The translations under genes were made by a program, and so were the position numbers. A stretch of 64,000 nucleotides of DNA, from NCBI RefSeq assembly GCF_040183065.1, contig NC_091131.1, positions 99,944,330 through 100,008,329 on the forward strand, written 5' to 3'. Within the stretch, counting starts at the first letter, position 1, and the number at the start of each line of letters is the position of its first letter. This DNA comes from Periplaneta americana (taxonomy: Eukaryota > Arthropoda > Insecta > Blattodea > Blattidae). The notes under the pieces were generated by a model. The model saw nothing but the letters and a program-made list of their open reading frames with translations. It did not search any database and had not been told where the DNA came from. Shown here piece by piece: positions 500 through 47,400 of the stretch.

Positions 500-1620
500 T
501 TTGTTTATTGTAAATATGTCGACAAAGAAGAAACAAGGATTGACAATCTATAGCGAAGCAAGGAATATTATTGCAAGTGTAAATTAATTCTGTGATGAAG
601 AAAAAGAACAACAGTGCCTTTGCATTCCTCTTACGAAACCCACAGCAAAGGTAGAAAAGTACTCTAATCTATCCACAAGAACAATACAGCGTATAAGGAA
701 TGACATGAAAGATTGCACAGAAGAAAGTGCGTTGTGGGAGAAAAAAAAACGGAAACGTCCAGACTACCGAAACGCAAATGTAGATGACTTTGACCGGAGA
801 TTGACAAAAAAGATATAATTGAGAATTTTATTTTAAAAAAGAATTAAGGCCACCGGCGTAGCTCAGGAGGTAGCGTGTTTGCCTGCTGATCTGCAGTTGC
901 GCTCGGGCGTGAGTTCGATTTCCGCTTGAGTTGATTATCTGGTTGGGTTTTTTCCGAGGTTTTCCCAAGCGAAAGGCGAATGTCAGGTAATCTATGGCGA
1001 ATCCTTAGTTTCATTTTGCCAAATACCATCTCGCCATCATCAATTGAATCGACATTGAAGAAGCTAGTAATTATTACAGTGTCGTTAAATAACCAAATAA
1101 AAAAAAGTAGTAACAAGCTGCAACAAACTTTTACCCCTGCTACAAGAGAGAATTGATTTGAAATGAAAGACAACATTAAGACGAATACTGAAGGAAAAGG
1201 ATTTCAGGTGGAAGAAGTGTGCATCGAGAAAAAAAATAATTGAAGAGGAAAATACTGTAAATTAGAATATGTGAAAATATCTACAGCAAATAAGAAAGCT
1301 TAGGGAAGTGGAAAAACCGATTTTGTATCTGGACGAGATGCGGATAGATAGGCCTATCAATTTAACTTCTGGCAGGATATGTTACGGGAGTTTTGACTAC
1401 CATAAATGTGGCCGGAAGACTTATTGTTGTCATCAGGATGGGGGCGGTGGGGCTAATGGCTTTGTTGAGAGATTCGAGTTAATATACAAGGCTGGAACAT
1501 AAACAGATGATTATCATGGACAGATGATTCTTCAACAATTTCGAAGTCATAGCAACAACACCGAAGATGCGGAATCTTTTATGTCTGACTTCGTTCTCTT
1601 GTAGCCAAGTAAGTGGACTG
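500..1620 (+). pseudogene. Decayed IS630-like DDE transposase, interrupted by a SINE
   Basis: The frame from 516 reads MSTKKKQGLTIYSEARNIIA, then after a stop a helix-turn-helix-like stretch (STRTIQRIRNDMK) and VDDFDR. The insertion at about 845-1110 is a tRNA-derived SINE. Beyond it the transposase resumes: ILYLDEMRID (the DE of the DDE triad), GGGGANGFVERFELIYKA, then DDYHGQM and a frame-broken tail. The order (HTH, YLDE, GGxNGF, DYH) is that of the insect IS630/Tc1-like DDE family. Stops and frameshifts make it inactive. Confidence 0.7.
845..1115 (+). mobile_element. tRNA-derived SINE
   Basis: Head has box A-like TAGCTCAGGAGGTAGCG and box B-like GAGTTCGATTTC, as in a tRNA promoter. The body GGTTTTCCCAAGCGAAAGGC resembles other SINEs here, and the end is ACAGTGTCGTTAAATAACC followed by an A-rich run. 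It interrupts the transposase relic. Confidence 0.75.
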
Positions 1621-2000: not shown

Positions 2001-3280
2001 AAACAATACGAGTACTAATAAAAAACTTCGTTTAGGCGCTTGTCAACTAGCAAAAATACGTCGATTATTTATTGTTTCTTGTCAGTTGCACTGTACATAT
2101 TAAAACTTCCGAAAAAATATATTGGAACCAAGGAGACAGCAGTCCTTGTCCAACGGAACAAAGGACTGAAAAAGCCATGTTAAACATTTTAGCAACTTAA
2201 TCGCTGTAACAATATTAAACTCGACTTCAATTTTCTTCCAGTGGAAGGCCTCTTAATGACTTTTACAGTCATTAAAAATCAATCCCAGGAAGATAAAGGC
2301 AAAGAGAGATAGTACATGCAACAACGAAATCTAAGTAACAACCATAAACAGAGACCGGAAAACAAGAAGAACGTTCGAAGAATGGCCTGCAAACTGAAGA
2401 CTAAACAATCTGAAAAATCAAAACAATGGATGATGATGATGATGATGATGATGATAATGTATAATCGTGTAATTGTTGCATTTTCTTTACCTCATATTGT
2501 AATATTACCTGGCACTTATATCAATTTATACTATAGGCCTAATCATTTTGGCCTGTCTTAATTGAAGTAGAGTTTATGATCTGTTGTGATTTGAATTGTT
2601 TTCTACATACGTTATTTATTATCGAGTAAGAAACGAGTTAATTATATTTAAATTTATTATGACGCACATATTTTAGTCACATATTTATGGTATATTCTGT
2701 AATACGCGAAATGAAGTTATGTAATTCAATGTGTATTGAGCCACATTTAATCTGCTATTGCACACCAGCCAAGAGGACTTATAAAACAAGTTACAATTTT
2801 CAGCGACATGATTGAATTACACCTATTAAAATTACAGTTCACTTAGCTTCTAGTTAATTTCTAATTGCGCAACAAAAGTTAAGCATCGTGTTTACACATA
2901 ATTGCGAACTGCAGTGTCATTTATCAGTTTATTCTACATATTAAAAAAATACAAAGAAAAACGTCTGAATTGAAGATCTGAATTGACAAACATCCCAAGG
3001 CCATTGAAGTACATTTTTCAGGAGAGCAAAGAAACCATACAGACTTGCAATATGATACTGAAATTAATATTTATATGATTAAAAAACACAGACTTAGAGT
3101 CGCACTTTGAATATTTTTTTTTACAGGATGGTAGCCTATACAAAACACAACATCTATCAAGTGAAAAGTAAAATTCGGTAAATTTTTGACTTGGAATGCA
3201 GGAAACGTGTATTTCGGTGAAAATGATTGAAATCGATTTTAGCAGCATCACAATAACTATAATACAATTTGGATATGGAG
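2000..3280. other. Unassigned intergenic DNA
   Basis: AT-rich DNA without convincing genes. It contains a short (GAT)n microsatellite at 2429-2457, which gives an open frame with a Met run that I do not regard as a gene. One TAGGCCTA palindrome lies at 2534-2541. Confidence 0.4.
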
Positions 3281-5989: not shown

Positions 5990-6359
5990 TAGATGTCTTT
6001 TCTGATTCAAACAGTAGACGTGCGACACTACGTCTTAACACGTTTTTCATACAGGGTGTTTCAAAAGTGACTCAAAAATCTAGGGATAAGAAGTAAAAAC
6101 GAAAAGAAGCAAAAATGTTCCAGTAAACATGAGGCCGCAAATTAACCCTTTACAAGATAATGTCATTTTGTGTTGGTCATGGCCCACTGAATATCAAGTA
6201 TTAATTCCAACAAAAGCAGTGACAATTTTATTTAATTTATCAATCACGAAACAGTAAGATTTTATAAGTTTGGCTTCAGAACAACAGAAATGTGATTGAA
6301 TATATACAAAAGAAACTTTTTTGTTTGAACAACAGTAAAGTTTCTGGATTAACAAGATA

Positions 6360-6600
6360 TAGTATAGTTGTTTAGTCAACTGTCCGAAGACAGATCTGAA
6401 CCTCACAAGTAATACCGAGACGGCACCACTTATGAGGCAACTAGGCCAGGACATAATGGGGTAGGGCGGCCAGTTCCTTTCCCCTCCACTGCATACATCG
6501 CCGACTAGCTACATATTACAATAGTCAGACTTCAGATTGTTCTTCCTCTGACACATATCAAGTGAGATGTACTGCCTGATAATAGATGTATACATATCAG
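6360..6600 (-). repeat. Dispersed repeat family R1, copy 2 (inverted)
   Basis: Reverse complement of the 27060-27365 repeat, including GTACTGCCTGATAATAGATG and ATAATGGGGTAGGGCGGCCA. The open frame at 6194-6454 is within it and not a gene. Confidence 0.7.
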
Positions 6601-8330
6601 CAAGAACCTCAGTCAGAGGATTCTTAGAGAGTAAAGGGAAATGATGTTTTTGTACGGAAAAAATTCCAATGCGAACGGTGGGTTCCACTGTGTAGTTATT
6701 GTACTGCTACTTAATGCACTGAATTATTATTCTGCAAAGAATCAACCGACAATTATTAATGATGTAATAAAATGTTCATCGAGGTGAATTGTTCATTCTT
6801 GTTCCGTTCATTTCATTTTGTTTTGTTCCTTTTTGTGGGCACAGAGTTTTGTTTCCTTTCTTCTTGCACACTGATCGATAGAAACAATGCAAATAAATAT
6901 TACAATAAGATAAATATGCCAATCAATAAGTTTCACAGAACCAAGTGTTTAAGCTATCCTTTCTAACTTCAGAATCAGTTACCAATCCATTTAATAAAGC
7001 TTAAATTTGTTACATATATTTTTAAATTTATTACATATTTATCTACATATTTTTCAAAATTGTGGCTACATACATATGTACACATTTCCCACTTTCATAT
7101 TACATAAAAACCGGATCTAACTATTGGATAATCAATACGTAAATGGGGGACTAGTAAGGAAAAGGCCCCGCGTTATTTTTTATCGTCTTATTCTACAATT
7201 AAAATTATCTTCATTAATTTACAGGGGCTTCGAGATGAATTGTGGGGTTTAATTTGATAATTGTACGTGTCACGGCGGTGGCAGTATTATGTACAGTCCG
7301 AGTATTCAAAGAGGACGCTTTCTTCTGAAGAGATAAGAGTCTGTATAATGATTAGGCCTTCTCAGATGCCTCTCCAATCGCAAGAAGCGGTAACATACGT
7401 CTACCAATGATGCGTAAGCAATAATTTGTAAGTGACGTTCTTATATTAATTCTACTTGGAGTAAATACAATGTTGTCGTATCTGGATTTGGTTGATGACA
7501 AAAAGGTCAACAAGCATAATTTTAATTGAAAGTAACCTTATAGCTTAAAATTTATTCACTATGGATGGTGGTGGTAGAAATCAATGTACTGATGTCGGTA
7601 TAAAATAATAAATTGTAACCAGAAATAATCTTTACAACGAAAGTGTGACAATACAGCTTGCCATTACAAGTACTGATGCGTGTAAAAAAATATATATATA
7701 TATCCAACACAATGCTTTCCGTCTAGGTATTAATTGGACGCTCGGACTATAAGTACTATGCTGCCGACCTAAGGTTGATCCCGATGTAAACAGAAGCACA
7801 TTCTGTTACTCGCTTATCACTGGCAGACTGATTTACATATATAAAATACTTAACCATATTATTATATTTCTTCTATCCACGAAAATCGGAATTTAAAAGC
7901 GATATGAATGTTAAACTATATACATTTTGCCTCTGTTTATTCACGCGTAACAAATGCGTTTACGAAAAGGGATACTATCTGAAGTACAATGAGACCCTAT
8001 TCATTAACAAAGTAACTTGACTCGCTTAGCCTGGAAGCTATTTAGGCCTACAATATTCGCAACGAAAAGTAGACATTTCTACTAATCATTTTAAACGAAA
8101 CATAGGAATCTGGGAGCATTCTGCGCTGCTTATTTCATTTGGGTCTATCTCTTCATCTTATGCAATAAGAACTTAAGTAAGAACAATAATTTGTGTAAGT
8201 TTCGAATTCCTGGTAACTTTATATTTTTGATTACAATAATTAAAGAACCATCAATTTTTAGAAATTGACTTTTGGGTACTCCACTCTGTCCTGAAATTTA
8301 ACATTCCTCAAGTTTCGAAACTACATACAG
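6600..8330. other. Unassigned intergenic DNA
   Basis: AT-rich, with a short (TA)n run near 7690 and a TAGGCCTA palindrome at 8043. No gene or clear transposon seen. Confidence 0.4.
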
Positions 8331-8332
8331 GT

Positions 8333-8845
8333 TAAGGTGACCAAGCGTCGGGCTTTTGGAAGACATTCCTCCTTTTTGAGCTTTGTCCTTCTGTCCTCCA
8401 GGCATAACATATAACAAAATGTCCGGAATTTTTAAAATCTATGACTATTGAAAATTTAATTCTTCATAACACGTGTTATTTATTGTCCTTAACGGTAAAA
8501 TTATTTTTTTTATCTATTTGGGTTGAGTTAATAATTCTAAAAAAGTAGGTTTTTTTTATTTCCGTTGGTAACTTTGTTCCTAAACTAAATTTATCACATG
8601 TAATGCTCATAGGCCTAATCAGGACAATATTTAGTATTATTGTTTTCGTTTAAATTGAGAATTAACATATTTATTATACAGTATTATTAGATGAACAGTA
8701 GCCTAAAGAAGCAATTATGACACAGAAATAACACTTTAAATTTACAAAACAGTGTCGTTACATGAGAATATTTTGGAATTATCCATTGTCCTCCTTTTTT
8801 CATCATTTTGTCCTTCAAAGATATTTTCACATCTGGTCACCATGA
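8333..8845. mobile_element. Possible TIR element with GGTGACCA-type ends
   Basis: Left end AAGGTGACCAAGCGTC and right end CATCTGGTCACCATG are roughly inverted, and both carry TCCTCCTTTTT/TTGTCCTTC motifs just inside. This is suggestive of an old hAT-type non-autonomous element; no target duplication is evident. Confidence 0.35.
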
Positions 8846-12985: not shown

Positions 12986-14064
12986 ATTCTTATTGAATTT
13001 AGTATTCCCAAGAAACTAGTTCGATTAATTAAAATGTGTCTCAGTGAAACGTACAGCAGAGTCTGTATAGGTTAGTTTCTGTCAGATGCGTTTCCAATTC
13101 ACTGTGGGCTAAAGCAAGGAGATGCACTATCACCTTTGCTTTTTAACTTTGCTCTAGAAGTCTAGAGTATGCCATTAGGAAAGTCCAGGATACCACAGAC
13201 GGTTTGGAATTGAACGGGTTACATCAGCTGCTTGTCTATGCGGATGACGTGAATATGTTAGGAGAAAATCCACAAACGATTAGGGAAAATACGGGAATTT
13301 TACTTGAAGCAAGTAAAGAGATAGGTTTGGAAATAAATCCCGAAAAGACTAAGTAGGCCTATATGATTATGTCTCGTGACGAAATATTATACGAAATGGA
13401 AATATAAAAATTGGAAATTTATCCTTTGAAGAGGTGGAAAAATTCAAATACCTGGGAGCAACAGTAACAAATATAAATGACACTCGGGAGGAAATTAAAC
13501 ACAGAATAAACATGGGAAATGCCTATTATTATTCGGTTGAGAAGTTTTTATAATCCAGTCTGCTGTCAAAAAATCTGAAAGTCAGAATTTATAAAACAGT
13601 TATATTACCAGTTGTTCTTTATGGTTGTGAAACTTGGACTCTCACTTTGAGAGAGGAACATAGGTTAAGGGTGTTTGAGAATAAGGTGCTTAGGAAAATA
13701 TTTCAGGCTAAGAGGGATGAAATTACAGGAGAATGGAGAAAGTTACACAACAGAACTGCACGCATTATATTCTTCACCTGACATAATTAGGAACACTAAA
13801 TCCAGACGTTTGAGATGAGCAGGACATGTAGCACGTATGGGCGAATCCAGAAATGCATATAGAGTGTTAGTTGGGCGGCAGGAAGGAAAAAGACCTTTGG
13901 GGAGGCCGAGACGTAGATGGGAAGATAATATTAAAATGGATTTGAAGGAAGTGGAATATGATGATAGAGACTGGATTAATCTTGCTGAGGATAGGAACCA
14001 ATGGCGGGCTTATGTGAGGGCGGCAATGAACCCCCGGGTTCGTTAAAAGCCAGTAAGTAAGTAA
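12986..14064 (+). mobile_element. 5'-truncated LINE (copy A) with 11-bp target duplication
   Basis: Non-LTR reverse transcriptase fragment flanked by the direct repeat GTTAAGGAAAT (12975-12985 and 14065-14075). It carries [12 protein letters not shown] and [14 protein letters not shown] (the RT YxDD motif near 13226), then the C-terminal [15 protein letters not shown] and a (TAAG)n 3' tail. Several frame breaks and a TAG from the TAGGCCTA at 13354 disable it. Clade is uncertain, RTE-like by tail and C-terminus. Confidence 0.85.
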
Positions 14065-15343: not shown

Positions 15344-15345
<2 letters not shown>

Positions 15346-15646
15346 CAGGGCTTTCATTTCAAAACTTCCCAGTATAAATAACTAATTATTTAAATTGAAT
15401 TAAATTTAAACAAAAAAGCAAGTCAATTTAGATATTGAGGGGGAAGTCTGAAACCTGGCTTAATTGCATTTTAGATTTCACCCCCCATCCCTCACTTTGA
15501 AATTTCAAATAGCATCTCTGTATGTTTATACTTAAATATGAAAGAGCATTCAATAATTGTTTATACACCTCATTCATTTGTTTAAATTGGAATTCAATTT
15601 AAATAATTAGTTATTTAGACTGGGAAGTATTGAAATGAAAGTCCTG
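15346..15646. mobile_element. TA-flanked foldback MITE, copy 1 (301 bp)
   Basis: Ends CAGGGCTTTCATTTCAAAAC and, on the other strand, CAGGACTTTCATTTCAATAC, each next to a TA dinucleotide. Internal ATTGAGGGGGAAGT and TTTGAAATTTCAAAT blocks are shared with the 17262-18030 copy. TA duplication places it with Tc1/mariner-type elements. Confidence 0.85.
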
Positions 15647-15649
15647 TAT

Positions 15650-17260
15650 ATTTACGAAGCACAAGTTATTGTTCGATATCTTAGACCCCAGTATCATAAG
15701 TCTCGGTGGTATCAGTGATGACGATAATGATGGTTCCAACTGTGACGGTAAAATGGACAGGACAGCAAAATTTGAGGACTAGGACTAGCAGCTCAAGTTA
15801 ACATGTCAGTGTTTCAATTCGATGTTTAGCGCGCGCTTGCCATTTTCACTCTGTTCTCTCCCCTCCCAAGTGACGTAGATCAGGCTTTCAGATCTTCCGC
15901 ACGAGCTTGTATGTCTTTATATTCTTTTCAGTGCCGGAAGGCCTTTCTGTAGTCGTTACGCTCATGGGAATTGTACACACTAACAGCATTAGTTGTGGAA
16001 AACTGAATGTTAATTTATCATTAAATAGTTTTAGCAATATTCAATGTCCACAATGAAAACGGCTTGTTTACCGGATCTTTATTAAATTAAACACAATATT
16101 ATCATTATTCCAATAGCACACCATCACTAGCACTGAAATAAATAAAAGTAAGCTTTCTCCTCTGCACTGCATAGTTATCAGATTAATGTACCGATATTAA
16201 CTTCGACTTCACTTCCACACTGTTTGACACAAAAACTAAAACTGATAACATTTTTTTTTTTTTTTTTTTAATTTTCTTAGTTTTTAGAATGTAATTTTGA
16301 ATGGATATGGGAAAGGTGGCAGGTTTGTGTAGAAAACACAGTTATACTAAGCTGAGGGATGTTATGAGGGTAATATAACTTCCTACCTGACGCTAGCTTC
16401 AGTTGAGTATTGAAAACTACCAGTCTAGGCCACGACTTTTTCTCTCTAGTCATTCATGCAATGCCCGAGGGAACAAATGAATCGGAACTTCAGCAGCAAT
16501 GTGAAATCGCAGATTTTCAATTGCCATATCTACGTGCAGTTTGAAAATGTTGTATAAAGGCGCTCTTGACAATGTTTTTAGTATTTAATTTTTGTATTCG
16601 GAAGCAATTACAGTGAAGCAGAACTTCATCTGAATTCTCGCCACTGGGTTTATGTAGGCCTAAATATTATTATAATGCTACCAAATTTGGGACACACGTT
16701 TATAAAGCATTACAAAGACTTAGTTCAAAATTATATTGAGATATTTTGTATATTGAGGAGCAAAAATTAAACAGAAAAAGTAAAATTCAGAATTTAAATA
16801 TACAAAAGTAAGTGAAGATGGTACAAATTTTCCTAAAAATGTTCAACCAAGGCACTTGAAACTTCAGCAATGAGGTAATGAACGTCATGCAATGGATGAC
16901 ATGCTACTCAGTATAGAGAAATTCTTTACACCATGCATATACCTTAATTTTCAAAAGGAACTGTTCTGTTTTTCCATTAGTGTCCTAGCAGTGTGCCATT
17001 TGTTGTGATGTAGGCCTACTCTTATCTGAATTACACTCAAACGGCTTTCTTTATAATTCCAAAGTAAGATAATTGTTTTCATTTATTCACTATGCTTGCA
17101 GTAAATATATGTAATCAATTTTAAACAAAGGACATAAAATTGCTATGCATTCATTGTAATCATTTCTAATATTCTTCCATTTACAAACATCACCATTTAA
17201 AAGTGATATGAATGATAAGATAAATTAGACTGCTTAATGCTTTACTCATGCGTAAGATAT
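15650..17260. other. Unassigned DNA
   Basis: No supported gene. Contains a T-rich tract near 16253 and TAGGCCTA palindromes at 16655 and 17011. Confidence 0.4.
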
Positions 17261-17261
17261 A

Positions 17262-18030
17262 CAGAGTGTTCATTTCAAAACTTCCCAGTCTAAATAACTA
17301 TAAAATTTAGATTGAATTTAATTGAACTAAGAACATATAAATTTAGATATTGAGGGGGAAGTTTAAAACCATTCTTAACTGATTATTAAGCTTAACTCCC
17401 TCACACCCAGCCAACCCCATTTTGAAATTTCAAATGGCACCCTTATCTTGTGATATTTAAATTTGAAAAGTATTCAATTATTTATACATCTCATTCATTT
17501 GTTTTCGCATCTTTTATTTTCTATTGTCGCCTGGTAACCTGTACTGTTGTTATTGTCAGTTGATTGTAGGATGAAAACACAGTTTATTTTGTGTAATCTC
17601 CTAAATTTAATCTAAGGATGATTTCTGTTCTTTCTTGAAGGGTATATACCATTTCAAATAATTTAATACACAAACACAACTATTATATGAAATGCTCAAT
17701 AGTCTTCTATTCTCTTCAGCTCTAATCAACAATAACAACAATCCAGGTTGCCAGGCGATGATAGAAAACAAAATATGCGAAAACAAATGAATGAGGTGTA
17801 TAAACAATTGAATACTCTTTCAGAATTTAAGTATCACAAGATAGAGGTGGCATTTGAAATTTCAAAGTGGGGGTGGCTAGGGGTAAGGAGGAGAAAACTA
17901 ATATCAATTAAGACTGGTTTTAAACTTCCCCCTCAATATCTAAATTGACTTGTTTTTTGTTTAATTAAATCCTATTTAAATTATATACCGGTAGTTATTT
18001 AGACTGGGAAATTTTGAAATGAACACTCTG
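17262..18030. mobile_element. TA-flanked foldback element, copy 2 (769 bp)
   Basis: Ends CAGAGTGTTCATTTCAAAAC and, inverted, CAGAGTGTTCATTTCAAAAT, each beside TA. Nearly the whole element is an inverted repeat: the left half has GGGGGAAGTTTAAAACC and the right half its complement, and AACAATCCAGGTTGCCAGGC pairs with its inverse near 17530. The longer frames on both strands are arm shadows. Confidence 0.88.
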
Positions 18031-18284
18031 TATGTTTAGAGTTACTCTCCTCAATTATTCTCTGCTAAGACCTACATGATGCTACCCACAGGGGTAAGAT
18101 ACAATTTACAGCTAAAGAGAAATAAGTCTATAGGCTATATTAATAAAATAATAACGTATCTCAGCAAATCTTCTTTTTTCTCTCAATACGAACTTCACTA
18201 TCTCAGTTGCCAGTTTATTTTACGTTATTTTCTTCAATGGCACATGCCTCAATTTGCTGTTATTTGCCCCAGATATCACTAATA

Positions 18285-18450: not shown

Positions 18451-20455
18451 TAGAAAACACGAAGAAAATGCTCTACCAATTTTGGAAGTGGATAGCTAGT
18501 ATGCATCTTTTTTTATTTCAAATAAAGCCCATTATTTTTTACTAATATTTTATGTAGAGTTGCCAAACATAGGTTTACCCCAGAACAATACTGTTTCAGC
18601 TCTTTTTGTTCTGTATGGTGCAAGTCTTGAACTGTATGCCAAATGATTCATTTTCAATTTCCAAATTCCGTGCATAGTACTGATTGATTCTCACTGCTAA
18701 GCTACCTACTAAAGATGAACAAATTTAACTGCCACTCTCGCTTGCTGTGGTCGTTGCACTTGTCTTTTGAGTCTCGTCTCGTAACTCTTGTGCGCTTCGA
18801 GTCTTGCTCATCATTCTCGAAATAGCATTTGGTCGGCGTGGAAAGATTTAGTAACTTTGAATAACATACATCATTGAAATAAATAACATTAGAGATGTTT
18901 AAATGACACAAAAAGTCAAAACAAAACAGTATCATAGTTATCAAAATGTTCTGGTTCTATTATCAGATATTACCTATGGTGTCATAAATAGAAAAAAATT
19001 GTCAAATAAATTTGAATTTCTAAGAAACATAAAACATAATGTTAAATAAAGCGTTAATATTTTTTTTTACTTGAGATTGTACACTTGATATCAAACATAC
19101 GAAAAAACAAAGCCTAGCATTTTAATAAGGGCCTAGTAATTAAATAAAGATTGGGGAATGGATTATTATACACTGAAATGTAGAGATGATGTTTCAAATA
19201 GGCTACTTGATTGTTTATACATACATAATATTTGCCAAAATAGATAAAAGTTCAATCTGGTATAAACAACTTTGGCAATTCAAGGTTGCTTAATGTTCGA
19301 GAGTTGACCACTCCCGATGTCTTGACAGTTTGCTTAAGGAGTCAACGACATAGGCAATACTGTCGTTTAAGTTTTCGGCTTTGCAGGCGCTATTACTCTT
19401 GCTTTCTCAATCACTGTTCAACTCTACTACCTACGTCACATTTACAGACGTGGTGGTGGCAGTGTAGTAGTGTGACAATCTCAGAAAGATGGGTGTATTT
19501 TATAGATTTAATTGGTGCACAAAAACAGAAAAACATTTTAATTAAGTTTTTGCTAAGCATTTTCTCATAATATGTATTTACAGAGAGAGTTTTTCAATCA
19601 GTAATAGCTATAAAATATAGGTATGAAACAAACAGAACTATTGCAAATTTGATCAAAAATGAACTTTATGTATACTTCAACAATGATGAAGATTGAGGTG
19701 AATTTTACAAGATTTTGTTAGATAAAATCTTGTTAAGTATGCCATCTTCAAGTGAGAAATACATGTGAAATGTTTTTTTTTTTAATCCAATGCCACCAGG
19801 TTGTCTTTTCAACATTTCTGGTCTTCTCTCCTGCCCGTGGCTTAGTTGTAACCCACTTCTGAGGTTGGGGCGCCTGGAAGTTGGAGTTACATCACCCCGA
19901 TGATGTGATAGGATGAACATGTGAAATGTAGGAGTGTATAAAAAGAAAGACTGAGTTCACAGGATAATTATATATGTAGTTATACTGTAATAAATAATAG
20001 TTTGCAATGCGTAATTATAATGATTAAGTTTAATAGTTAATACGTAATACAATCTCCTCTTAAACAAACTCAATAAAAGGTGCCTCCCTCCCCCAGAAAC
20101 TGGATGTCAATGAAAAGTGTACCTTTTTGATATTTTCCATCTCCAAATATGGCAACCCTAATTTTATGTGCATCGTTTCTAGATAAATTGAGTAATAGAT
20201 ACCGAATATGAGCAAAATCTGTCCAATAGTAATCCCTGTACATACGCAGAAAGATAGACATAGACAATATGCCCAAAACCACTTTTTTTTGTATCAGGAA
20301 TGTCTAAAATGGTGTATTTCTGTGCAAATCTCAAAAACGTGTTTTGCATTATCAGAATATTTTTTCTTTATAGGCCTACTTCATATAATGATTGTACCAT
20401 AAATAAACTAATTAATAACAAATCTACCAAAATATAGAAAATAATATGTACTTAC
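18450..20455. other. Unassigned DNA, possible intron of the LPCAT3-like gene
   Basis: No further MBOAT exon is seen. 20160-20300 holds a dispersed repeat also seen at 9065-9200 (GATACCGAATATGAGCAAAA, then a GACAGAC-like run), probably LINE-related. Confidence 0.35.
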
Positions 20456-20578: not shown

Positions 20579-23500
20579 CTAGAAGCAAGAATGGTGTTGT
20601 TAATGTATGTAGGATGGAGATAAAAATTCATTTTCAAAATTATAGTCTAATAATGCCAAAAATAATAATTCAATACTTATTTTTTCAATGACAGGACCCT
20701 TAACTTGCAATTATCCAACCTGACTCTATGTGCAGGCTCATAGATATAGCTAGTGCCACTTAGTTCGTCAAAGACTATCCAAAGTGCACTATAGGCAATG
20801 GATGTACATTATAACAATTGTAATGGATAATGATGATGATGATGATGATGAGAAATTCTTTGCATGTTATCTACAGAGGAACTGGAGTTCCCGGAGAAAA
20901 TCCTTATGCTGCCCTGACCACAGGCTTGTCCAAGACAAGTTATAAATTCAGGGTGCAGTGGAATTTGAACCTGGGCCCCTTGGTTTAAAAGCCCAACGTG
21001 CTAGCACTGAGCCACCGTAGTGGACTAGTGGTATTGAATAGGTACTTTATGTACTAGTACACGAGCTCAGCATATTCGTATTATTAAACTATGTGAGCTC
21101 AGGTGATATAAATTAACCGATGGAAAACTTTATCTTAAACTGAAATCATTTATATATATAAATTAAATACTATATTTATTAAAGCTTCGTGGAAGTATGC
21201 AAAGAAACAAAACAAAAATATTTGGATTTATTTACAAAATATTAGACTAATAAAACAGAATTTGAAACATATTACTAACTTATACAGGGTGAATCGTAAT
21301 TGTGCACCATAAAGTATTGTAGAGTATTCTATATTCCAATATAAACAGATTTTGTCATACAAACATATAGCCATGATGTCTTTGTTATCGAGATATGACA
21401 ACACTGTGGAATGCACGAGTTGATGTTATGTCGAAGTTATTCATGCATCAGTCACTCAGATGACACCCTACAGTACACAGTAAGTGCAACTATTGTTATT
21501 GAAGAGAGAGAAATGCTACAGTCAGTCAATGGCAGCATATTTGCATTTTCTGCAGACTGAACTACCACAAGAAACAGTACCACTGTCAACACGGTTGAAC
21601 ACGTGGCTACTGCAAGATGAAGCGTCTGGGTAATGAAATATCATTTGAATGAACGGTATCCAGACAAATGGAGTGGACACAACGGGCCTGTTGCATGGCT
21701 GACGCGATCGCCTAAACTCGGTCCATGCAACTTCTGGTTGTGGAATCACATGAAGGGACTAGTTTACTCTCAACGAGACGCCACGAGAGAGCACCTGATG
21801 AATGCAATTGTGGCTGCAGGAAACATAATTCGGAGCATTGTTCAAAGAGCAAGACATTCATGGTGGAGGAAGGTGGAATTGTGTTGTGAAGTGAGTGGTG
21901 CACATTTCGAGCATCTTCTGTGAACTTGCAATGTAAATAACTACGTCATTAAGCAACACTCTCAGAAAAGTAGCTCTTGTTTTCTTCTAACTGTTCCAAT
22001 CATTATCTCCATAGCCTAATGAAGCAGGCACGACCATAAGTTTATATGAAAAAATATGTTTCATTTTTAGTATAGAATATTCTGCACTATTTTATAGTAC
22101 ACAATTACGACTCACTCTGTATACTAAATACGTGTAAACACGTGGAATAGCCTAATACTGAAGTTATTAAATCTCAGTTATTATAAAAGTCTATATAAAT
22201 TCTTATCTAGTATTCAAAGGTAGCCAGATTTTTGTTACAGTACAGCTTTTGAAACTTGACACTGAATGTAGAATTAAATGTGTATGTACTCGTATAGGCC
22301 TACATATAGTGGATTCCGGCATATCTGTTGGCCGACCAGTGACAGGTTTCTCCCACTGCCACTACTATTTGCATCTACGAACTCACCATATTTCGCTGGA
22401 TTAAAACTTACTAGGTATGCAAAGTAACAACATTCGTATATTTTGCCACAGAATTAATTATTAGCAGGGGGTTATAGAAAGCTCATTCCCCACATCTAAC
22501 ACTATGTGATTTTTATTTAATGGGAAACACTGAAAAATAAAGTGTATGCAACTCACAATTTTGAACACAAATTTCTTTCATTGATGGAGAGAAACTGATG
22601 CATGTGAATAACAGTTTCTTATGACGATATGAATTATGTATCACACAAGATGGGCAACACTTCCAGCAGCTACTGTAAGGAGGATGAGTACCGAATGTTA
22701 TTAATAGGCCTATAACATAGCACTTAAGTTTTAATCCGGAAGAAGCACTGTGAGTTCATGGATGCATGGTGGACCTGCAGCTGGTCAGCCAACAGAAACA
22801 CTTGGAACATTTGCCAAGATTTACTGTAGCCTATATGGTCACTGAAATACTGTTAAATATAGTTTCAATTTAAGATTCAATTATTATATAAATTTGGACG
22901 AAAATATTCAAACGTATTAAATTCTACATAAGTAAGGTACATAAAATGAATTGTTATGTCAGACCTTGTTTAGCCTATTGTGTTCACAAACAAGATTCGC
23001 AACTTTCACGGTGATCAACGTGGTTCGAGGTTTTTACACTACCCTATGTCCAAGATGTAGAGGCGTCCAACATTTCAGAACTAAATGTCGGCTCCATCAT
23101 CGGGGCATGTATTATTATTCCTATAACTTTTGACTTGATCCACACCTCAAAGCTACAAATGCTGATATAAGATCTATGGAATACAGTAAATTAAATGAAA
23201 GGAGAACGAGAAAACCTAACTGTTGGATATTTCTACATCAAGGACATGGCGTAAATACCCAAAACCTCGCACTGAACAATGATTAGTCTATTAATTTTGT
23301 TGAAAGTTCGTACAAAACCTCGAAAATAATCAGTAAGCCTAACAGAATGTGAATAGATCTACAAGTAAATACATCACTTATTCCTTGTAATTATTAATAT
23401 GAATTTCTGGTAGTTACAGAAATATCGCTGTTTACACTACAAAAGGAGAATTACATTTCAATATTATTTTTGGTGCATGCTATAATCTATATATATCTAC

Positions 23501-24572
23501 GTACCTAGCCTAGCTACTACAATGCAATATTACTACACAGGACAAAGTTGTATAAAGTTACTCTGGCTTCTAATCAGTTTAAGCTTACAATTTTATATTT
23601 GTCTCATTTGATCACTTACACAATCACAATTTTTATTTAAGTCTATGCATAAGGTAGCTGAAGGCTTACTTATTGAGTGAGGATGCAAACAGAAGATGAT
23701 ATATTTAAGAGGAAACAAATGACTTGACCGAACACTGTGTTAAGGGAATTGAAAACGAAAACTAGACACCATAAGTCATTTCCAAAGATAATATTGGACA
23801 GGACAGGACAGAAAAGGATCTTTATTAAACAAGCAGTAAATTCTTCTTTAAGAAGAAGACGAAGTGAAAATAAAGTCCATGTCTATCGTTTCCTAGATTA
23901 GAATGTTAAAGTAGTCAAGTGACCTGGCAAAGTATCAATCGCTAACAGAAATAAAACCTGTAAATATATTCATTTTCTAGATAATAATGTCCATAAAATT
24001 AAATTAGGTACACTTGAAGTGAAAGTATAGCCTACGAATATGTGTAGGCATTTCACAACGAGAACATGTATTTGCCAACGCTGACCTTCATACAGATGAT
24101 GCGTTAGTTGAAACATCACGGATATCACTAAGAAATGAGGTTATGAAGACACAAAAAAAAGCATGAAAGTAAACTTACCATAATTGAAGTATCCAATGCT
24201 CAACCCACTCAATACAAAAAACAAATGCTGATATTGTAGAAATTGTCCATATAGTGTGTATCTATGTATTAAAGCTAGAGGATATCCTGAAATAATGATA
24301 AAATTCTTGATTATTATCAATTCAGACTGCAGAAACAGTAATATATGCAGTGTATGAATTTCAAAATAACCTCCTAGTAAGTATGTCACAACAGTTAAGT
24401 CGTAAATTATATTTATTTTGGACGAAAATTATACTAAATTGACATGTTATAAATACATTTATACATTACCTATTAAAATCGACACTAATAAACGTAGTGC
24501 TGGTTCTGTTGCTCCTAAGGAATTTGCCAATTGGCCTAACAATGTTCCTCCTGACATACTCACACCAGCCAT
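20456..24572 (-). CDS. MBOAT lysophospholipid acyltransferase (LPCAT3/nessy-like), N-terminal three exons
   Basis: ER-membrane acyltransferase that re-acylates lysophosphatidylcholine and related lysophospholipids. Three exons (24572-24470, 24286-24179, 20578-20456) join in frame to 111 residues. They match LPCAT3 (MBOAT5): QLANSLGATEPALRLLVS, GYPLALIHR, FFVLSGLSIGYFNYG and VFTMTYLLAG, corresponding to human KLATSLGASEQALRL, GYPFALFYR, FTGLSIAYFNFG and FQMAYLLAG. The segment covers the first hydrophobic helices; the catalytic Asn/His region is not reached. The start is the ATG at 24572 because conserved sequence begins soon after it; an in-frame ATG at 24635 precedes a T15 run. Later exons were not found down to base 1, implying a very long intron, a missed exon or a scaffold edge. 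Homology is from remembered family sequence. Confidence 0.88.
20735..21025 (-). mobile_element. SINE family S2
   Basis: Minus-strand tRNA-like head: read in reverse it gives box A-like GTGGCTCAGTGCTAGCACG and box B-like GGTTCAAATTCC. The body has TCCGGGAACTCC-type sequence and a (GAT)n run at 20828-20850. Related copies are at 18285-18450 (same orientation) and 31920-32170 (opposite). Confidence 0.75.
21285..22119 (+). mobile_element. Internally deleted mariner-like element (835 bp), TA-flanked
   Basis: Terminal inverted repeats CAGGGTGAATCGTAATTGTG and (opposite strand) CAGAGTGAGTCGTAATTGTG run about 50 bases; both ends abut TA. The frame at 21633-21923 is a transposase C-terminus: NERYPDKWSGHNGPVAWLTR, SPKLGPCNFWLWNHMK (degenerate SPDLTPxDFxLW), ending GAHFEHLL. 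The N-terminal DNA-binding part and first catalytic Asp are lost. Confidence 0.9.
22125..24170. other. LPCAT3-like intron, no other gene seen
   Basis: AT-rich intronic DNA with TAGGCCTA palindromes at 22295 and 22705 and TAGCCTA at 22827 and 24028. A GGACAGGACAGGACAG run lies near 23797. No other gene or well-defined transposon is seen. Confidence 0.4.
24179..24286 (-). CDS. LPCAT3-like exon: GYPLALIHRYTLYGQ...FNYG
   Basis: 108 bases; acceptor TTATTTCAG, donor GTAAGT. Encodes YPLALIHRYTLYGQFLQYQH then LFFVLSGLSIGYFNY, matching LPCAT3 between its first and second membrane segments. The intron before it is 183 bases. Confidence 0.9.
24470..24572 (-). CDS. LPCAT3-like first recognised coding exon
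   Basis: ATG then MAGVSMSGGTLLGQLANSLG and ATEPALRLLVSILI, one base left over, donor GTAATG. The open frame continues upstream through a Ser/Gly stretch to a possible acceptor TTTGTTAAAAG before base 24609, so the exon may be internal or begin in 5' UTR. Confidence 0.85.
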
Positions 24573-25871: not shown

Positions 25872-25908
<37 letters not shown>

Positions 25909-25909
25909 C

Positions 25910-25951
<42 letters not shown>

Positions 25952-28290: not shown

Positions 28291-28293
28291 ATA

Positions 28294-29194
28294 CAGAGGG
28301 CTCCAAAAAAATGTACTCACTGTTTTTAAGTCCATATCTCGTGACATATTTGACTTGACAATTTTTGGCATTGAGAGAGGGTTATGTTAGTGTTCGAAAT
28401 GACCATTACAAACTTGTATACAACGCCCATGGCGCCGAACTATGGCTGTTAGTGTATCTGGCATAATGGCAGCACATGACTCTTCGATTTCTGCAAGTAG
28501 CTCGTCGATTGTTGCTGGTCTTTGTGGATACGCATCATTCTTTATGGTCTCCCAGAGGTAGAAGTCCAGAGGTGTCAAATCAGGAGACCAAGGTGGGTAC
28601 TCAACAGCACCTCTTCGACCCACCCACCGTCCAGGTAGGGTTCTATCGAGGTATGACCTGATATCTCGACGGTAGTGAGGCGGTGCTCCGTCTTGTTGCA
28701 TGTAAAAGAGTTCATCACCATACAGGTTTTGGATGGCAGGCAAAATCCTTATCTGAAGTATATCAAGATATGCCTGGCCAGTTACGGTACCCTTGAAGAA
28801 GAAAGGACCAATCAAACCACGCACTGATACACCACACCACACAGAAAATCCCGGTAGATTCACTGCCCTGTGGGTGGGTTGAAGAAGTACTGTCGAGTAC
28901 CCACCTGTCTCCTGATTTGACATCTCTGGGGGGACTGTAAAGAATGACGTATATCGACAAAGACCAGCAACAATCGACAAGCTACGTGCAAAAATTGAAG
29001 AGTCATGTGCTGTCATTACGCCAGATACACTAATAGCCGTAGTTCGGTGCCATGGACATTGTATACAAGTTTGTGGTGGTCATTTCGAACGCATACTATA
29101 ACCCTCTCTCAGTGCCAAGAATTGTCACGTCAAGTCAAATATATCACGAGATATGGACTTGCAAACAGTGAATACATTTTTTTGGACTCCTCTG
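28294..29194 (-). mobile_element. Foldback mariner-like derivative (901 bp), TA-flanked
   Basis: Ends are TA|CAGAGGGCTCCAAAAAAATG and, inverted, TA|CAGAGGAGTCCAAAAAAATG. Minus-strand transposase 3' half: LFYMQQDGAPPHY (first catalytic Asp context), YPPWSPDLTPLDFYLW (second), ending QVCNGHFEH. From about 28870 to 29194 the same 3' segment is repeated in the opposite orientation, so the element is an inverted duplication of one transposon end. It cannot encode a full transposase. Confidence 0.88.
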
Positions 29195-29196
29195 TA

Positions 29197-29860: not shown

Positions 29861-31855
29861 CAGTAAAAGACATGGCAGCAGCACGCAAATTATATCCTTC
29901 AAAATTGAAATTCTTACAGGATTCAGTTGAGGCAAATAAAGATATTTATTTCAATGAAAGTCAGAAAGCAAGTCATACACTTAGAAATAAAAGGAGGGAT
30001 TACTTGAAGGAAAAACTCAATGAGGTAGAAACAAATAGTAAGAATAAAAACATTAGAAATTTATATAAGGGCATAAAGGAATTTAAGAATGGATATCAGG
30101 CAAGGATAAATGTAGTCAAGGATGAGAATGGTGACTTGCTTGCAGATTCTAATTCAATTCTGAACAGACACAAAAACTATTTTAAGCAACTATTAAATGT
30201 ACAGAGGCCAAACAGAAATGATCAGACAAAATTCAAATACAAGTTTGTGGTGGTCATTTCGAACACATACGATAACCCTCTCTCAGTGCTGAGCCATTTA
30301 TTCCCGAACCCACACTTTCTGAAGTCGAAATTGCAATAGAAAAGCTGAAAAATTACAAGTCTCTAGGTATCAATAAAATTCCAGCAGAATTAATACAAGA
30401 GGGTGGAAGCGCATTATCTAGCAAAATTTATAAGCTTGTACTTACTATTTGGGAAAAGGAAATTGTACCAGAACAATGTAAGGAGTCCATAATTGTACCT
30501 ATCTTTAAAAAGGGGGACAAGACTAACTATAGTAACTTTCACGGAATATTAGTTTTGTTGACGTCGTACAAAATGTTGTCCAATATTCTTTTGAGAAGAT
30601 TAAGTTCATATGTAAATGAAATTATTGGGGATCATCAGTGTGGTTTTAGGCATAATAGATCACTATCGATCAGAATTTTTGTATTCGACAGATATTGGAG
30701 AAAAAATGGGAGTATAAGGGTACAGTACATCAGTTATTCATAGATTTCAAAAGGCATGTGACTCTGTTAAGAGAGAAGTTTTATATAATATTCTTACTGA
30801 ATTTGATATCCCCAAGAAACTAGTTCGATTAATTAAAATGTGTCGCAGTGAAACGTACAGCACAGTCTGTATAGGCCAGTTTTTGTCAGATGCTTTTCCA
30901 ATTTACTGCAGGCTAAAGCAAGGAGATGCACAACCACCTTTACTTTTTAACTTTGCTCTAGAATATGCCATTAGAAAAGTCCAGGATAACACAGAGGGTT
31001 TGGAATTGAATGGGTTACATCAGCTCCTTGTTTATGTGGATGACGTGACTATGTTAGGAGAAAATCCACAAACTATTAGGGAAAACAAGGGAATTTTACT
31101 TGAAGCAAGTAAAGAGATAGGTTTGGAAGTAAACCCCAAAAAGACAAAGTATATGATTACGTCTCGAGATCAGAACATTGTACGAAATGGAATTATAAAA
31201 ATTGGAAATTTATCGTTTGAAAAAGGTGAAAAAGTTCAAATATCTTGGAGCAATAGTAACAAATATAAATGACACTCAGGAGGAAATTAATCACAGAATA
31301 AATATGGGAAATGCCTGCTATTATTCGGCTCAGAAGCTTTTATCATCCAGTCTGCTGTCAAAAAAGCTGAAAGTTAGAATTTATAAAACGGTTATATTAC
31401 TACTGACTGTTCTGTATGGTTGTGAAACTTGAACTCTCACTTTGAGAGAGGAGCAACAGAGGCTAAGAGTGTTTGAGAATAAGGTGCTTAGAAAAATTTT
31501 TGAGGCTAAGAAGGGTGAAGTTACAGGTGAATGGAGAAAGTTACATAATGCAGAACTGCACGCATTGTATTCTTCACCTGACAAAATTAGGAACATTAAA
31601 ACCAGACGTTTGAGATGGGCAGGGGATGTAGCACGTATGGGCGAATCCAGAACTGCATATAGAGTGTTAGTTAGGAGGCTGGAGGGAATAAGACCTTTAG
31701 GGAGATTAAGACGTAGATGGGAGGATAATATTAAAATCGATTTGAGAGAGGTGACATATGATGGTAGGGACTGGATTAATCTTGCACAGAATAGGGATCG
31801 ATGGCAGGTTTATGTGAGGGCGACAATGAACCTCTGGGTTCCTTAAAAGCAATAA
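29860..31855 (+). pseudogene. LINE copy B (inter-domain, RT and C-terminal regions), degraded
   Basis: Linker between endonuclease and RT at 29872-30235 (LRNKRRDYLKEKLNEVE), RT from about 30290 with [56 protein letters not shown] and [14 protein letters not shown] (YVDD instead of YADD). C-terminus at 31442-31846 has [20 protein letters not shown] and ends in a (TAAG)-type tail. Frameshifts near 30735 and 31225 and a TGA near 31430 kill it. A 52-base mariner patch sits at 30238-30289. Confidence 0.85.
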
Positions 31856-32364: not shown

Positions 32365-33702
32365 CTTACTTACTTACAAATGGCTTTTAAGGAACCCGAA
32401 GGTTCATTGCCGCCCTCACATAAGCCCGCCAGCGATCCCTATCCTGTGCAAGATTAATCCAGTCTCTATCATCATACCCCACCTCCCTCAAATCCATTTT
32501 AATATTATCTTCCCATCTACGTCTCGGCCTCCCTAAAGGTCTTTTTCCCTCCGGTCTCCCAACTAACACTCTATATGCATTTCTGGATTCGCCCATGCGT
32601 GCTACATGCCCTGCCCATCTCAAACGTCTCGATTTTATGTTCCTAATTATGTCAGGTGAAGAATACAATGCGTGCAGTTCTGTGTTGTGTAACTTTCTCC
32701 ATTCTCCTGTAACTTCATCCCGCTTAACCCCAAATATTTTCCTTAGCACCTTATTCTCAAACACCCTGAACCTATGTTCCTCTCTCAGAGTGAGAGTCCA
32801 AGTTTCACAACCATACAGAACAACCGGTAATATAACTGTTTTATAAATTCTAACTTTCAGATTTTTGGACAGCAGACTGGATGATAAGAGCTTCTCAACC
32901 GAATAATAACACGCATTTCCCATATTTATTCTACGTTTAATTTCCTCCCGAGTGTCATTTATATTTGTTACTGTTGCTCCAAGATATTTGAATTTTTCCA
33001 CCTCTTCGAAGGATAAATCTCCAATTTTTATATTTCCATTTCGTACAATATTCTGGTCATGAGACATAATCATATACTTTGTCTTTTCGGGATTTACTTC
33101 CAAACCGATCGCTCTACTTGCTTCAAGTAAAATTTCCGTGTTTTCCCTAATCGTTTGTGTATTTTCTCCTAACATATTCACGTCATCCGCATAGACAAGA
33201 AGCTGATGTAACCCGTTCAATTCCAAACCCTGCCTGTTATCCTGAACTTTCCTAATGGCATATTCTAGAGCGAAGTTAAAAAGTAAAGGTGATAGTGCAT
33301 CTCCCTGCTTTAGCCCGCAGTGAATTGGAAAAGCATCAGATAGAAACTGACCTATACGGACTCTGCTGTATGTTTCACTGAGACACATTTTAATTAATCG
33401 AACTAGTTTCTTGGGAATACCAAATTCAATAAGAATATCATATAATACTTCCCTCTTAACCGAGTCATAAGCCTTTTTGAAATCTATGAATAACTGATGT
33501 ACTGTACCCTTATACTCCCATTTTTTCTCCATTATCTGTCGAATGCAAAAAATCTGATCAATAGTCGATCTATTACGCCGAAAACCGCACTGATGATCCC
33601 CAATAATTTCATCTACGTACGGAGTTAATCTTCTCAAAAGAATATTGCACAAAATTTTGTACGACGTCAACAAAAGTGATATTCCTCGAAAGTTACCACA
33701 GT
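32365..33702 (-). mobile_element. Young 5'-truncated LINE (copy C), intact partial ORF, 13-bp target duplication
   Basis: Flanked by TGGTAAATCCTTA at 32352-32364 and 33703-33715. The minus frame is open from the truncation to the stop near 32387, over 430 codons: [69 protein letters not shown] (RT active site), [26 protein letters not shown] and [17 protein letters not shown]. The endonuclease and first RT blocks are absent. (TAAG)n tail at the 3' end. The intact frame and clean duplication suggest a recent insertion. Clade probably RTE-like; not certain. Confidence 0.92.
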
Positions 33703-36310: not shown

Positions 36311-36319
36311 TATTATTCT

Positions 36320-36470
36320 TCTTCTTATTATTATTAATTGTTATTAATTATTATTATTATATTATTATTATTATTATTAGTATCACTGTTATCATTATCA
36401 TTATCGTAATCATTAGGATGATCAAGATTATGATTATCAGGATTATTATGATGGTTATTATTTATTATTG
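36320..36470. repeat. (ATT)/(ATC)-rich low-complexity tract
   Basis: Mixed ATT and ATC triplets; the Asn/Asp-rich minus frame over it is an artefact. Confidence 0.85.
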
Positions 36471-44400: not shown

Positions 44401-47400
44401 TTGTATCTTAATTACTACCATTATAGGCTCGTTGCATAATGTACTATTAAGTCAAGAAGAATGAATATTACGCTGATTTGTTTAGAGTTGATAAAATTAA
44501 AATGTCCAAATCTATGAATCAAGTGAGTTTCGGACATATATTGACATGACATTTTCGACTTAAAATGACCTCACCAATACTCTCTTAAGCTATGGCCATC
44601 AAGTCACAGGACATCTTGTATAACAGAGGGAGGAAAGCCATTTAGAAACTTACCAATGAAACCAATACTTCTTCCCAAAACAAAAAGACTGTTGATGGAA
44701 CCCATTTCTATGTATTCTTGGGCTTCTTCCCTGTAGAAATAAAACAAAATATTATTAGAAATATCATCACTTTACAGTTAATTCCAAATTTCACGCATTT
44801 TTGCAGTAATATGGTGGTTACAAAAAAGATACAAGTTCAGTTTATGAACTTCATTATTCATGAACCAGGTATTTTCTTTTTTATTTTTTTTTTCAATTCA
44901 TGTGTTACATACCTGGTGAAACTTCCACTATGTCTCAGGAGATCAACAAATGAAACAGCAATTACACCATCTACATTAAGGATGAGATTTGGTTTCTTGG
45001 ATGTTGTGATTTTTTCTACTTCCAAGGCATAATTCAAAAGAGGATGTGCTGGGAAACTCTCCAAGACAAATTCCTTGATTATCTTCACCCGCATATCAGG
45101 ATTGTTAATCTGCACAAAAGAGGATTATGGTAATTTTATTATTTATTATTTTTTACAGTGTATCACACATACTCAAAACTACAGTCTGTCCAAAATAAAA
45201 ATGCTCTACACATAAACCTTAAAGAAGTTCTCGGGGCAGAAGGGAAGAAATAGTTCTTTACTTTTCATGTCTTCTTTTTTTTGTAGTGGGTTATTTTATG
45301 ATGCTGTATCAACATCTTAGGTTATTTAGCATCTGAATGAAGGTGATAATGCTGGTGAAATGAGTCCAGGGTCCAGCCCGATAGTTACCCAACATTTGCT
45401 CATATTGGGTTGAGGGAAAACTTCAGAAAAAACCTCAACCAGGGATTCGAACCTGGGCCACCTGGTTTCACAGTCAACTAGTGGTTTGCTTGTGAATCTA
45501 GTCGCTCGTCCTCTGATCATGAGTAGTACCTCCTTTCTGGGATTTATAAAATATCTGTGCACTATGAATTGTTTCTAAGACTGTACTACTCACTAATTAA
45601 CCGAATAATAAACAGATTTCTCTTTAACTGCAAAAATTAATATTAAATTACGCTGAATCTTTAAAAAGTTACACCCACAATGATTTACATCACGAACTTT
45701 CATTTATTATTTGTAAAGAAAATATATAATATGTTAGTGATATAGGCCTACTTACTGATTTAACTCTGTGTCCTATACCCATGATAAGTTGGCCCTTCTT
45801 TCTCATTGCATTAACAAATTCCATTGGATGAAGGCCAGAATCATAAGCTTCACTGAATTGTCTTGCAGCACCATCTAGGGCACCACCAAACCTGTCACCC
45901 TGAAATGTACAGTAGTTATAAAGTTCATCTGTTCTGTGTATGTAACAAAAACAAACAGTAACCTACAAATAGATGGATCTTTGAAACATACCAAACAACA
46001 AATGTTACAACATCATTGAGACATAATTGCTTGGTTTCTTATGTATTCAGAAATGGTTAACTAAGATTTTAATGAACTATGCCAATGTTTCAGCGACAAT
46101 TTACATTTCTGAGCTGGGTAATCTAGAAAGAGAAATGTTATTATTTACTCCCAACTAGAGAATAATAGACAAGGGTGGTAACTAGCTGAGTTGGATTTTC
46201 TGTGGATGGGAAATAACAGGTAAATTTTGTCCAGAGTGCTTTCATATTGGGGCAGGATTCTTTTAAATGCCATAAAACTAAACTAAACAGCTGCAACACA
46301 CAGTTTTATGCCCCTTCTCGAACCAAGCAGAAAATATTATGTTTCTCATAAAGCCATTTATCTTTGACTGAATTTGAACTTATGAACCTTCGAGTTAAAG
46401 ACAAGTATAGTGACCCCTGAACAATAAGATGCAATTTTAAGAATTTGTTTTCACGATGAAACAATTATTTCATCTTATTTATTTATTTATTTTGTTGGTT
46501 TCACAGTAACTATCATTTTGAGTTTTTTAGTTGGTTATTTAACGATGCTGAATCAACTGCTAGCAATGACTGAATTGGTGATAGCAAGATGGTATTTGAC
46601 GAAATGAGGCTGAGGATTCGCCATAGATTACTTGTTGTTTGCCTCCCAGTTGAAGAAAAGCTCGAAAAAACCCAACCAGTTTATCAGCCCAAATAGGAAT
46701 CAAACCCACACCCGAGGCGCAGCTCTAGATCAGAAGGCAAGTGCCTCTTGCCGACTGAACTACACCGGTGGCTTCATTTTGAGTTTAATGATCCGTGAAA
46801 TTAAATACAGATCTAAATAGCACTATCTTACATATAATAATTAATTTTTGTGCAAGACAATATCTGATCTGAAAGTCACACTTACAATTGTGAGCAAGCC
46901 TGAGACAACGGATGATACAAGATCCTTGCCTGCACGTGCACAAACAATAGTGTTGTGTGCGCCTGACACAGCTGGTCCATGGTCAGCTGTTACCATCAGA
47001 CACATTTCAAAGAATTTGCAGACATAGGGAGGAAGGCAGCGCTGGAACCACAGGAGGGATACTACTCCACCAATACCAACATCACGCTTCAGAACCTGCA
47101 TATAGACATACAAAACTATAAGTGACATAAAAATGTCTAATAAATTATTTACATATTTTTACACCTTGTTAAAGGATCTATTAAAGAAATTTCGGTAAAG
47201 AAGAAAGTTTCTAGAAAAGTAGAAACTTGCAATGAAGATCAATAGAGAGACATATAGACACATGAAAAAGTTTCAGATTTTAAAAAAGTACAAATAAGTA
47301 AGAACTTGAGCAAATATTGAGTCAAATCAGTACACTGGGCTGCAAAAGAAATGCCGAGTTGAAGTCTCTATCAATTTTAAATATCATGTTACGAGGACTT

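Follow-up and report, generated by a model that had tools for sequence, protein, structure and literature searches.

The question raised by this locus is why a single exact palindromic word, TAGGCCTA, recurs across a stretch of the Periplaneta americana genome, and whether its copies are scars left behind by transposons that have since departed. The stretch analysed, referred to here as the window, is 64 kb long. An earlier note on this DNA had listed 12 occurrences where about one would be expected, and had read one of them as a six-base gain within a LINE, possibly the footprint of an excised element. The best available reading, plausible and about as likely as not, is that the TAGGCCTA sites were left by the excision of TA-inserting, cut-and-paste elements of the Tc1/mariner type.

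An exact palindromic word in excess

An exact word search of the whole 64-kb window returned 12 copies of TAGGCCTA, which are the 12 positions given in the earlier note, every one of them correct, and no others. No strand is assigned to these sites:

1349..1356: TAGGCCTA
2534..2541: TAGGCCTA
8043..8050: TAGGCCTA
8610..8617: TAGGCCTA
13354..13361: TAGGCCTA, a 6-bp gain (GGCCTA or TAGGCC) in a LINE reverse-transcriptase ORF, with an in-frame stop (paralogue alignment and frame translation)
16655..16662: TAGGCCTA
17011..17018: TAGGCCTA
20371..20378: TAGGCCTA
22295..22302: TAGGCCTA
22705..22712: TAGGCCTA
45743..45750: TAGGCCTA
58885..58892: TAGGCCTA

Symmetric Markov models of order 1 to 5, fitted after the 12 sites had been masked, give an expectation of 0.26-0.55 (Poisson P 1e-12 to 1e-16), and 100 dinucleotide shuffles gave a mean of 0.52 and a maximum of 3. 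Measured within the window against the shuffled and Markov controls that the earlier note had proposed, the excess therefore holds at orders 1-5; it is real and somewhat stronger than the note stated, the enrichment being correct and the expectation of about one slightly generous. Among the 256 palindromic 8-mers, TAGGCCTA ranks third by P under the order-2 model, and the words ahead of it are the microsatellite words ATATATAT/TATATATA.

This excess is a property of the exact 8-mer alone. The one-mismatch neighbours of TAGGCCTA, when pooled, are not enriched (12 vs 12.9 expected), and this absence of decayed neighbours suggests that the sites are young. Of the 18 AGGCCT hexamers in the window, 12 have the T...A flanks and the 6 that do not are unenriched. 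Exact conservation, a palindromic form and clustering in the first 25 kb are also what a functional DNA motif, such as a host-factor binding site maintained by selection and dispersed through ordinary mutation, could display. We consider such a motif an improbable explanation, since binding sites normally tolerate variants and the near-variants here are flat, and since the TAGGCCTA at 13354 arose by insertion, interrupts a LINE ORF, and is accompanied by a second palindrome that behaves alike (described below).

Inspection by eye shows different flanks at each of the 12 sites, so the sites are not one repeat consensus, the alternative that the earlier note had named as fatal to its own reading. 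A purine precedes the TA on 20 of the 24 sides (P 0.002), which is compatible with the target preference of a TA inserter. Insect telomeres are built of TTAGG/CCTAA, and TAGG and CCTA are pieces of such a repeat, so that TAGG-CCTA could be pictured as a head-to-head junction formed by telomerase priming on the ends of a break at TA. We rejected this very unlikely idea because the TTAGG/CCTAA extension that should surround the palindrome is absent, TTAGGCCTAA, TTAGGTTAGG and CCTAACCTAA each occurring 0 times in the window. T, moreover, precedes the TA on just 4 of 24 sides of the TAGGCCTA sites, as against 32.5% for TA generally, and a telomere junction leaves the CCGG and GCC words discussed below unexplained. 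For P. americana itself the telomere repeat is given as AACCT in an excerpt of the genome paper (PMC12774602).

A library or assembly artefact would find its one argument in the palindromic, restriction-like form of the words, AGGCCT and ACCGGT being restriction-site cores. We regard it as highly improbable, because nothing breaks the ordinary sequence in which the sites lie, a colinear LINE copy included, and no common flank is apparent by eye. Among the matches listed by a literature search we recognised nothing that reports an enrichment or insertion of TAGGCCTA in the genome of an animal, and the accessible portion of PMC9191728 contains nothing on GGCCTA or footprints.

Gains at TA in two repeat copies

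Only one of the 12 TAGGCCTA sites, that at 13354, has a paralogue in the window; the other 11 have none. The LINE copy in which it lies, at 13 kb, has exactly six extra bases (AAGTA-GGCCTA-TATGATTA) in comparison with both in-window paralogues, whose empty sites were located by alignment to the 13354 copy:

31146..31159, plus strand: LINE paralogue, empty site AAAGTATATGATTA
33067..33080, minus strand: LINE paralogue, empty site AAAGTATATGATTA

A gain at 13354 is the parsimonious interpretation because two of two LINE paralogues are without the six bases. The interrupted copy translates as EKTK-stop-AYMIMSRDE, the stop being an in-frame TAG, and in both respects the earlier note's account of GGCCTA gained at a TA proved accurate. 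The remaining 11 sites may have arisen in the same way as the one at 13354. Searched against Pfam, the LINE copy at 13 kb gave a partial RVT_1 match (E 1.1e-6, 28.9 bits, just below the curated cut-off of 29.6), while the paralogue at 32.4-33.7 kb matched RVT_1 with 129.6 bits. The LINE protein found no relative among viral contigs and a single match among prokaryote genomes, on an archaeal (Nitrososphaerota) MAG contig. That match (L001:2-472) is a contig-end piece with 67% protein identity to the window's LINE, and reflects either chimerism in the assembly or insect DNA that was binned with the archaeon; the contig has 0 TAGGCCTA in 10.5 kb.

The next most enriched palindrome after TAGGCCTA, microsatellite words aside, is TACCGGTA, with 4 sites vs 0.32 expected (P 3.4e-4; corrected P 0.046 within the 4-bp TA-X-TA classes, which is marginal, and 0.086 for the 256 palindromes, which is not significant). 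Its sites, and the element that hosts the first of them, are listed here with no strand assigned:

17986..17993: TACCGGTA, with 6 bp gained by the right-hand terminal repeat of element 17260-18032 (compared with its own left terminal repeat)
25906..25913: TACCGGTA within an otherwise pure (TAA)n run, which is in phase minus the six bases (sequence inspection)
50445..50452: TACCGGTA, without a paralogue in the window
58652..58659: TACCGGTA, likewise without a paralogue in the window
17260..18032: the element that carries the CCGG gain, flanked by TA and with CAGAGTGTTCATTT as its terminal repeats (terminal-repeat scan)

The left terminal repeat of this element reads AATAACTA-TAAAATTTA and the right one AATAACTA-CCGGTA-TATAATTTA. 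Both ends of a related element at 15344-15648 are also without the CCGG gain, with a gap there of 7 bp. The CCGG at 17986 is a second, independent case of a TA-doubling gain. The TACCGGTA at 25906 is weak evidence of a gain, because any multiple of three keeps the (TAA)n phase, and the gaps that BLAST places there are 3 or 4 bp, which further weakens the case for six.

As a control, every TA-X-TA site within the in-window paralogue alignments was scored for an exact gain. The 90 alignments used cover 13,684 bases, those longer than 20 kb or shorter than 60 bp being left out, as were identical self hits in the self-comparisons. The results by class were as follows:

GGCC: 12 sites, 1 testable, 1 gain
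CCGG: 4 sites, 1 testable, 1 gain
GCC/GGC: 18 sites, 2 testable (both of a single ancestral pair), 0 gains
CAG/CTG: 33 sites, 3 testable, 0 exact gains
CGAG/CTCG: 7 sites, 0 testable
other TA-NNNN-TA: 741 sites, 60 testable, 2 flagged, neither of them a clean independent gain
other TA-NNN-TA: 515 sites, 65 testable, 3 flagged 5-bp gains

The two flagged 4-bp controls consist of one that overlaps the 13354 gain and one that is a gap split in two, and the three flagged 3-bp controls of two split or ragged gaps and one that overlaps the 17986 gain. An exact gain relative to an empty site, with a doubled TA, was seen at 13354 and at 17986, the sole testable two of the 16 GGCC/CCGG sites; against the 4-bp controls this gives a Fisher P of 0.0005 if no control gain is counted and 0.003 if both flags are, on small numbers.

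These observations bear on the possibility that the words are ancestral positions of repeat consensuses, or mere compositional chance. In its favour, two TAGCCTA words (34133 and 59430) occupy a shared repeat position, and TAGGCCTA forms part of a reverse primer for BLAG 1-6 retrotransposons of the German cockroach, which places the word in a repeat of another cockroach, as far as an excerpt of that study goes (PMC7650587). We nevertheless think this origin unlikely for the window as a whole, given the 12 different flanks, a P of <1e-11 in all five leave-out models, and a sole testable TAGGCCTA site that is a gain and not ancestral.

Candidate footprints and the search for a source element

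If the TAGGCCTA sites are excision footprints, other products of the same repair should be recognisable among words of the form TA-X-TA. The spectrum comprised 32 classes at 3 bp and 136 at 4 bp, with AT-only words left out and Bonferroni correction applied within each length. Its leaders by P were GCC and CAG at 3 bp and GGCC, CCGG and CGAG at 4 bp. The GGCC class (12 vs 0.43 expected) stands after correction, as does TAGCCTA/TAGGCTA, with 18 vs 4.03 expected (P 2.8e-7; Bonferroni 9e-6), a count that includes one paralogous pair and hence 17 independent sites.

Published accounts of such transposons, taken from excerpts, offer a mechanism. In Sleeping Beauty the excision cuts lie three nucleotides in from the ends, and end joining of the 3′ overhangs leaves a short footprint between two TAs (PMC7827188); Tc1/mariner footprints are 2-4 bp in length between duplicated TAs (PMC7913693, PMC7827188, PMC1925063). 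By analogy, an element ending TA-GGC...GCC-TA would be released by staggered cuts placed a few nucleotides within it, and each flank would retain TA and the 3′ overhang GGC. The overhangs could pair via their self-complementary GC and be filled in, yielding TA-GGCC-TA. Alternatively, a three-base pairing with a central G:G mismatch could be resolved to TA-GGC-TA or TA-GCC-TA, and TA-CCGG-TA would come from a separate family with CC(G)...(C)GG termini. Excision as the origin of the gains, the termini and stagger length of the element and the like origin of the other 11 TAGGCCTA sites are what we infer here; the exact termini are not established.

Three stagger models yield TAGGCCTA: a 2-nt stagger in an element ending GG...CC, a 3-nt stagger with GGC...GCC termini, and a 4-nt stagger with GGCC...GGCC termini. 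The earlier note's comparison with Tc1 footprints agrees with published footprints in its four bases and duplicated TA, but its specific proposal of GG...CC ends with a 2-nt stagger finds no particular support. We would favour the 3-nt stagger, which fits better because it most directly predicts the TAGGCTA/TAGCCTA companion that is in excess, although the 2-nt model together with the loss of one base would also produce these words.

Several features of the 3-bp class count against the footprint reading. The testable TAGCCTA sites, 34133 and 59430, are one shared ancestral copy and not gains, and TAGCCTA and TAGGCTA occur in a ratio of 15:3 where unbiased repair would make them about equal. 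TACCGTA, the companion of TACCGGTA under the 3-nt model, shows no excess in the window (3 vs 3.9). TACAGTA/TACTGTA is enriched (33 vs 16.5, P 2.3e-4; Bonferroni 0.007) and matches the CAG termini of six TA-flanked candidate elements in the window, yet there is no gain among its 3 testable TACAGTA sites, two of which equal their paralogue in length and one of which differs by 10 bp. The CGAG class, TACGAGTA/TACTCGTA, is not significant at 7 vs 1.46 (Bonferroni 0.11); its members lie at 2007, 57030, 57600 and 63763 on the plus strand and at 9519, 10141 and 22289 in the minus-strand reading.

The candidate scars are unevenly spread, the first 25 kb holding 10 of 12 GGCC, 13 of 18 GCC and 11 of 33 CAG sites (Fisher P 0.0009, with the 25-kb boundary picked after the positions were known). 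A regional bias common to GGCC and GCC suggests one cause. The densest cluster is:

22012..24034, plus strand: six copies of the candidate 3-bp scar TAGCCTA (22012, 22148, 22827, 22971, 23506, 24028)

These six words, all on the plus strand within 2 kb, stand beside the TAGGCCTA sites at 22295 and 22705. Host genes in the first 25 kb might account for the clustering, but among 171 ORFs read by eye all that we recognised were what we take to be LINE-like or transposase-like pieces, most of the ORFs being left unassigned; three of these ORFs were compared with Pfam, which gave one RVT_1 match.

The terminal-repeat scan returned six CAG-ended, TA-flanked candidates (15344-15648, 17260-18032, 21283-22121, 25228-25547, 28292-29196 and 62413-62829), of which one has a transposase-like ORF:

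28292..29196, minus strand: TA-flanked element, CAGAGG-ended, with a 230-codon transposase-like ORF at 28387-29079 (terminal-repeat scan)

In a search of solved structures this ORF had as the top of its 22 matches SB100X, the Sleeping Beauty catalytic domain, with a weak score of 6.7e-5, the others (antibody chains, designed proteins, SETMAR) all being at 0.008 or worse; Pfam gave no match for it. Its second and third candidate catalytic D are separated by 41 residues, and presumably it is DD41D-like. TA-inserting elements seem to have been active in the window. For the genome as a whole, the excerpted paper attributes 24.3% to DNA transposons, mainly Tc1-Mariner and hAT, with an abundance peak of DNA elements near 5% Kimura divergence (PMC12774602).

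The element that would have left the GGCC scars was not seen. Among the matches listed for the 64-kb window there is no TA-GG, TA-GGC or TA-GGCC...CC-TA element with matching ends, the same scan yielding the CAG-ended candidates, and no CCG- or CCGG-ended terminal-repeat element in the window. The five GG matches of the 11/14-matching scan are inverted pairs of LINE copies (30.5-31.9 and 32.4-33.7 kb), and the best 5 of 11 GG matches of the 15/24-matching scan are LINE pairs again. Two GGC matches at the 15/24 threshold were taken as chance, and among the best 5 of 7 CC matches the two strong ones (40735-43011 and 1904-6463) lie inside longer repeat pairs. The 15/24-matching scan gave 0 for GGCC, CCG, CCGG and CGAG, and none of the outer ends of 14 intervals, drawn from the end scans and from an inverted-repeat list of which 25 of 211 pairs were listed, starts TAGG. 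Other repeat structures in the window include a TA-flanked stretch bounded by perfect 24-bp terminal repeats, CACTGGGCTGCAAAAGAAATGCCG (47331-48397), a foldback-like inverted repeat whose arms have AACCGGGAACGG-like units (36006-36878), and a short tandem array whose copies are 94-95% identical at an offset of 286 bp (55752-56462).

About one scar per 5 kb, with element copies unseen in the window, is a high ratio and counts against the footprint reading. A TA-directed micro-insertion that involves no element at all, in which a nuclease or transposase cuts at TA, fill-in doubles the TA and each 3′ end receives a fixed GG or CC before joining, would account for many scars where no element copies were seen in the window, for the gain of the mirror palindromes GGCC and CCGG alike, and for GGCC scars that look undecayed. 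We regard this mechanism as possible but rather unlikely. We know of no enzyme that adds exactly GG to both ends; additions of this kind should vary in length, and TAGGTA/TACCTA stands at 33 vs 25.9 and TAGGCCCTA at 1 vs 0.18; and the 3-bp GCC form is better matched by footprint repair.

Known footprints and the meaning of the putative scars

The Sleeping Beauty footprint is CAG/CTG, that of Tc1 is TACATGTA and that of Minos is TA-CGAG-TA. The candidate scars in the window, in contrast, are GGCC and GCC, with no source element seen in the window. The Tc1 and Minos footprints are even in length and TA-flanked like TAGGCCTA, but their terminal bases differ, and the Tc1 form is not in excess in the window (2 vs 2.4). 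The likeness to Sleeping Beauty and Tc1/mariner footprints lies in a doubled TA round a few fixed bases and in staggered cleavage within the element followed by end joining, as excerpts of two papers describe them (PMC7827188, PMC7913693). A review, in the part available, gives the Sleeping Beauty footprint as TAG(T/A)CTA (PMC2874221), which is not notably enriched in the window at 10 vs 6.5. Stowaway and Osmar elements of grasses are similar in leaving TA-flanked TIR fragments of 1-4 bp at empty sites, to judge from excerpts (PMC1925063, PMC4561436), but there the element is known at orthologous sites, whereas for the TAGGCCTA loci no occupied site is known. HIP1 of cyanobacteria is likewise one palindromic 8-mer present at high frequency (excerpt of PMC4390886); it is bacterial, however, while TAGGCCTA arose as a TA-doubling insertion in its one testable case.

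TAGGCCTA is probably a new scar of an already known kind, the TA-flanked excision footprint. If the window is typical, 12 sites per 64 kb scale to about 600,000 copies of TAGGCCTA in 3.23 Gb. A bolder proposal, which we put forward tentatively and think rather unlikely to be correct in full, is that identical TA-GGCC-TA scars number in the hundreds of thousands across the genome. A single TA-targeting activity, so far unrecognised, would have written them in the recent past, leaving GGCC, GCC and perhaps CCGG, and its own elements would now be rare or lost, as would be the case for a self-erasing transposon or a cargo-less transposase. If TAGGCCTA is an excision scar, a count of the 8-mer would show the frequency with which a cut-and-paste family has departed from its sites, including families whose elements have since vanished, and excision history, target choice and end-joining outcomes would become measurable genome-wide in an insect. 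The missing source element would be a concrete target. Every scar would be a 6-bp in-frame insertion able to add two codons or a stop, and one in-frame stop in a LINE copy would be explained by a definite event.
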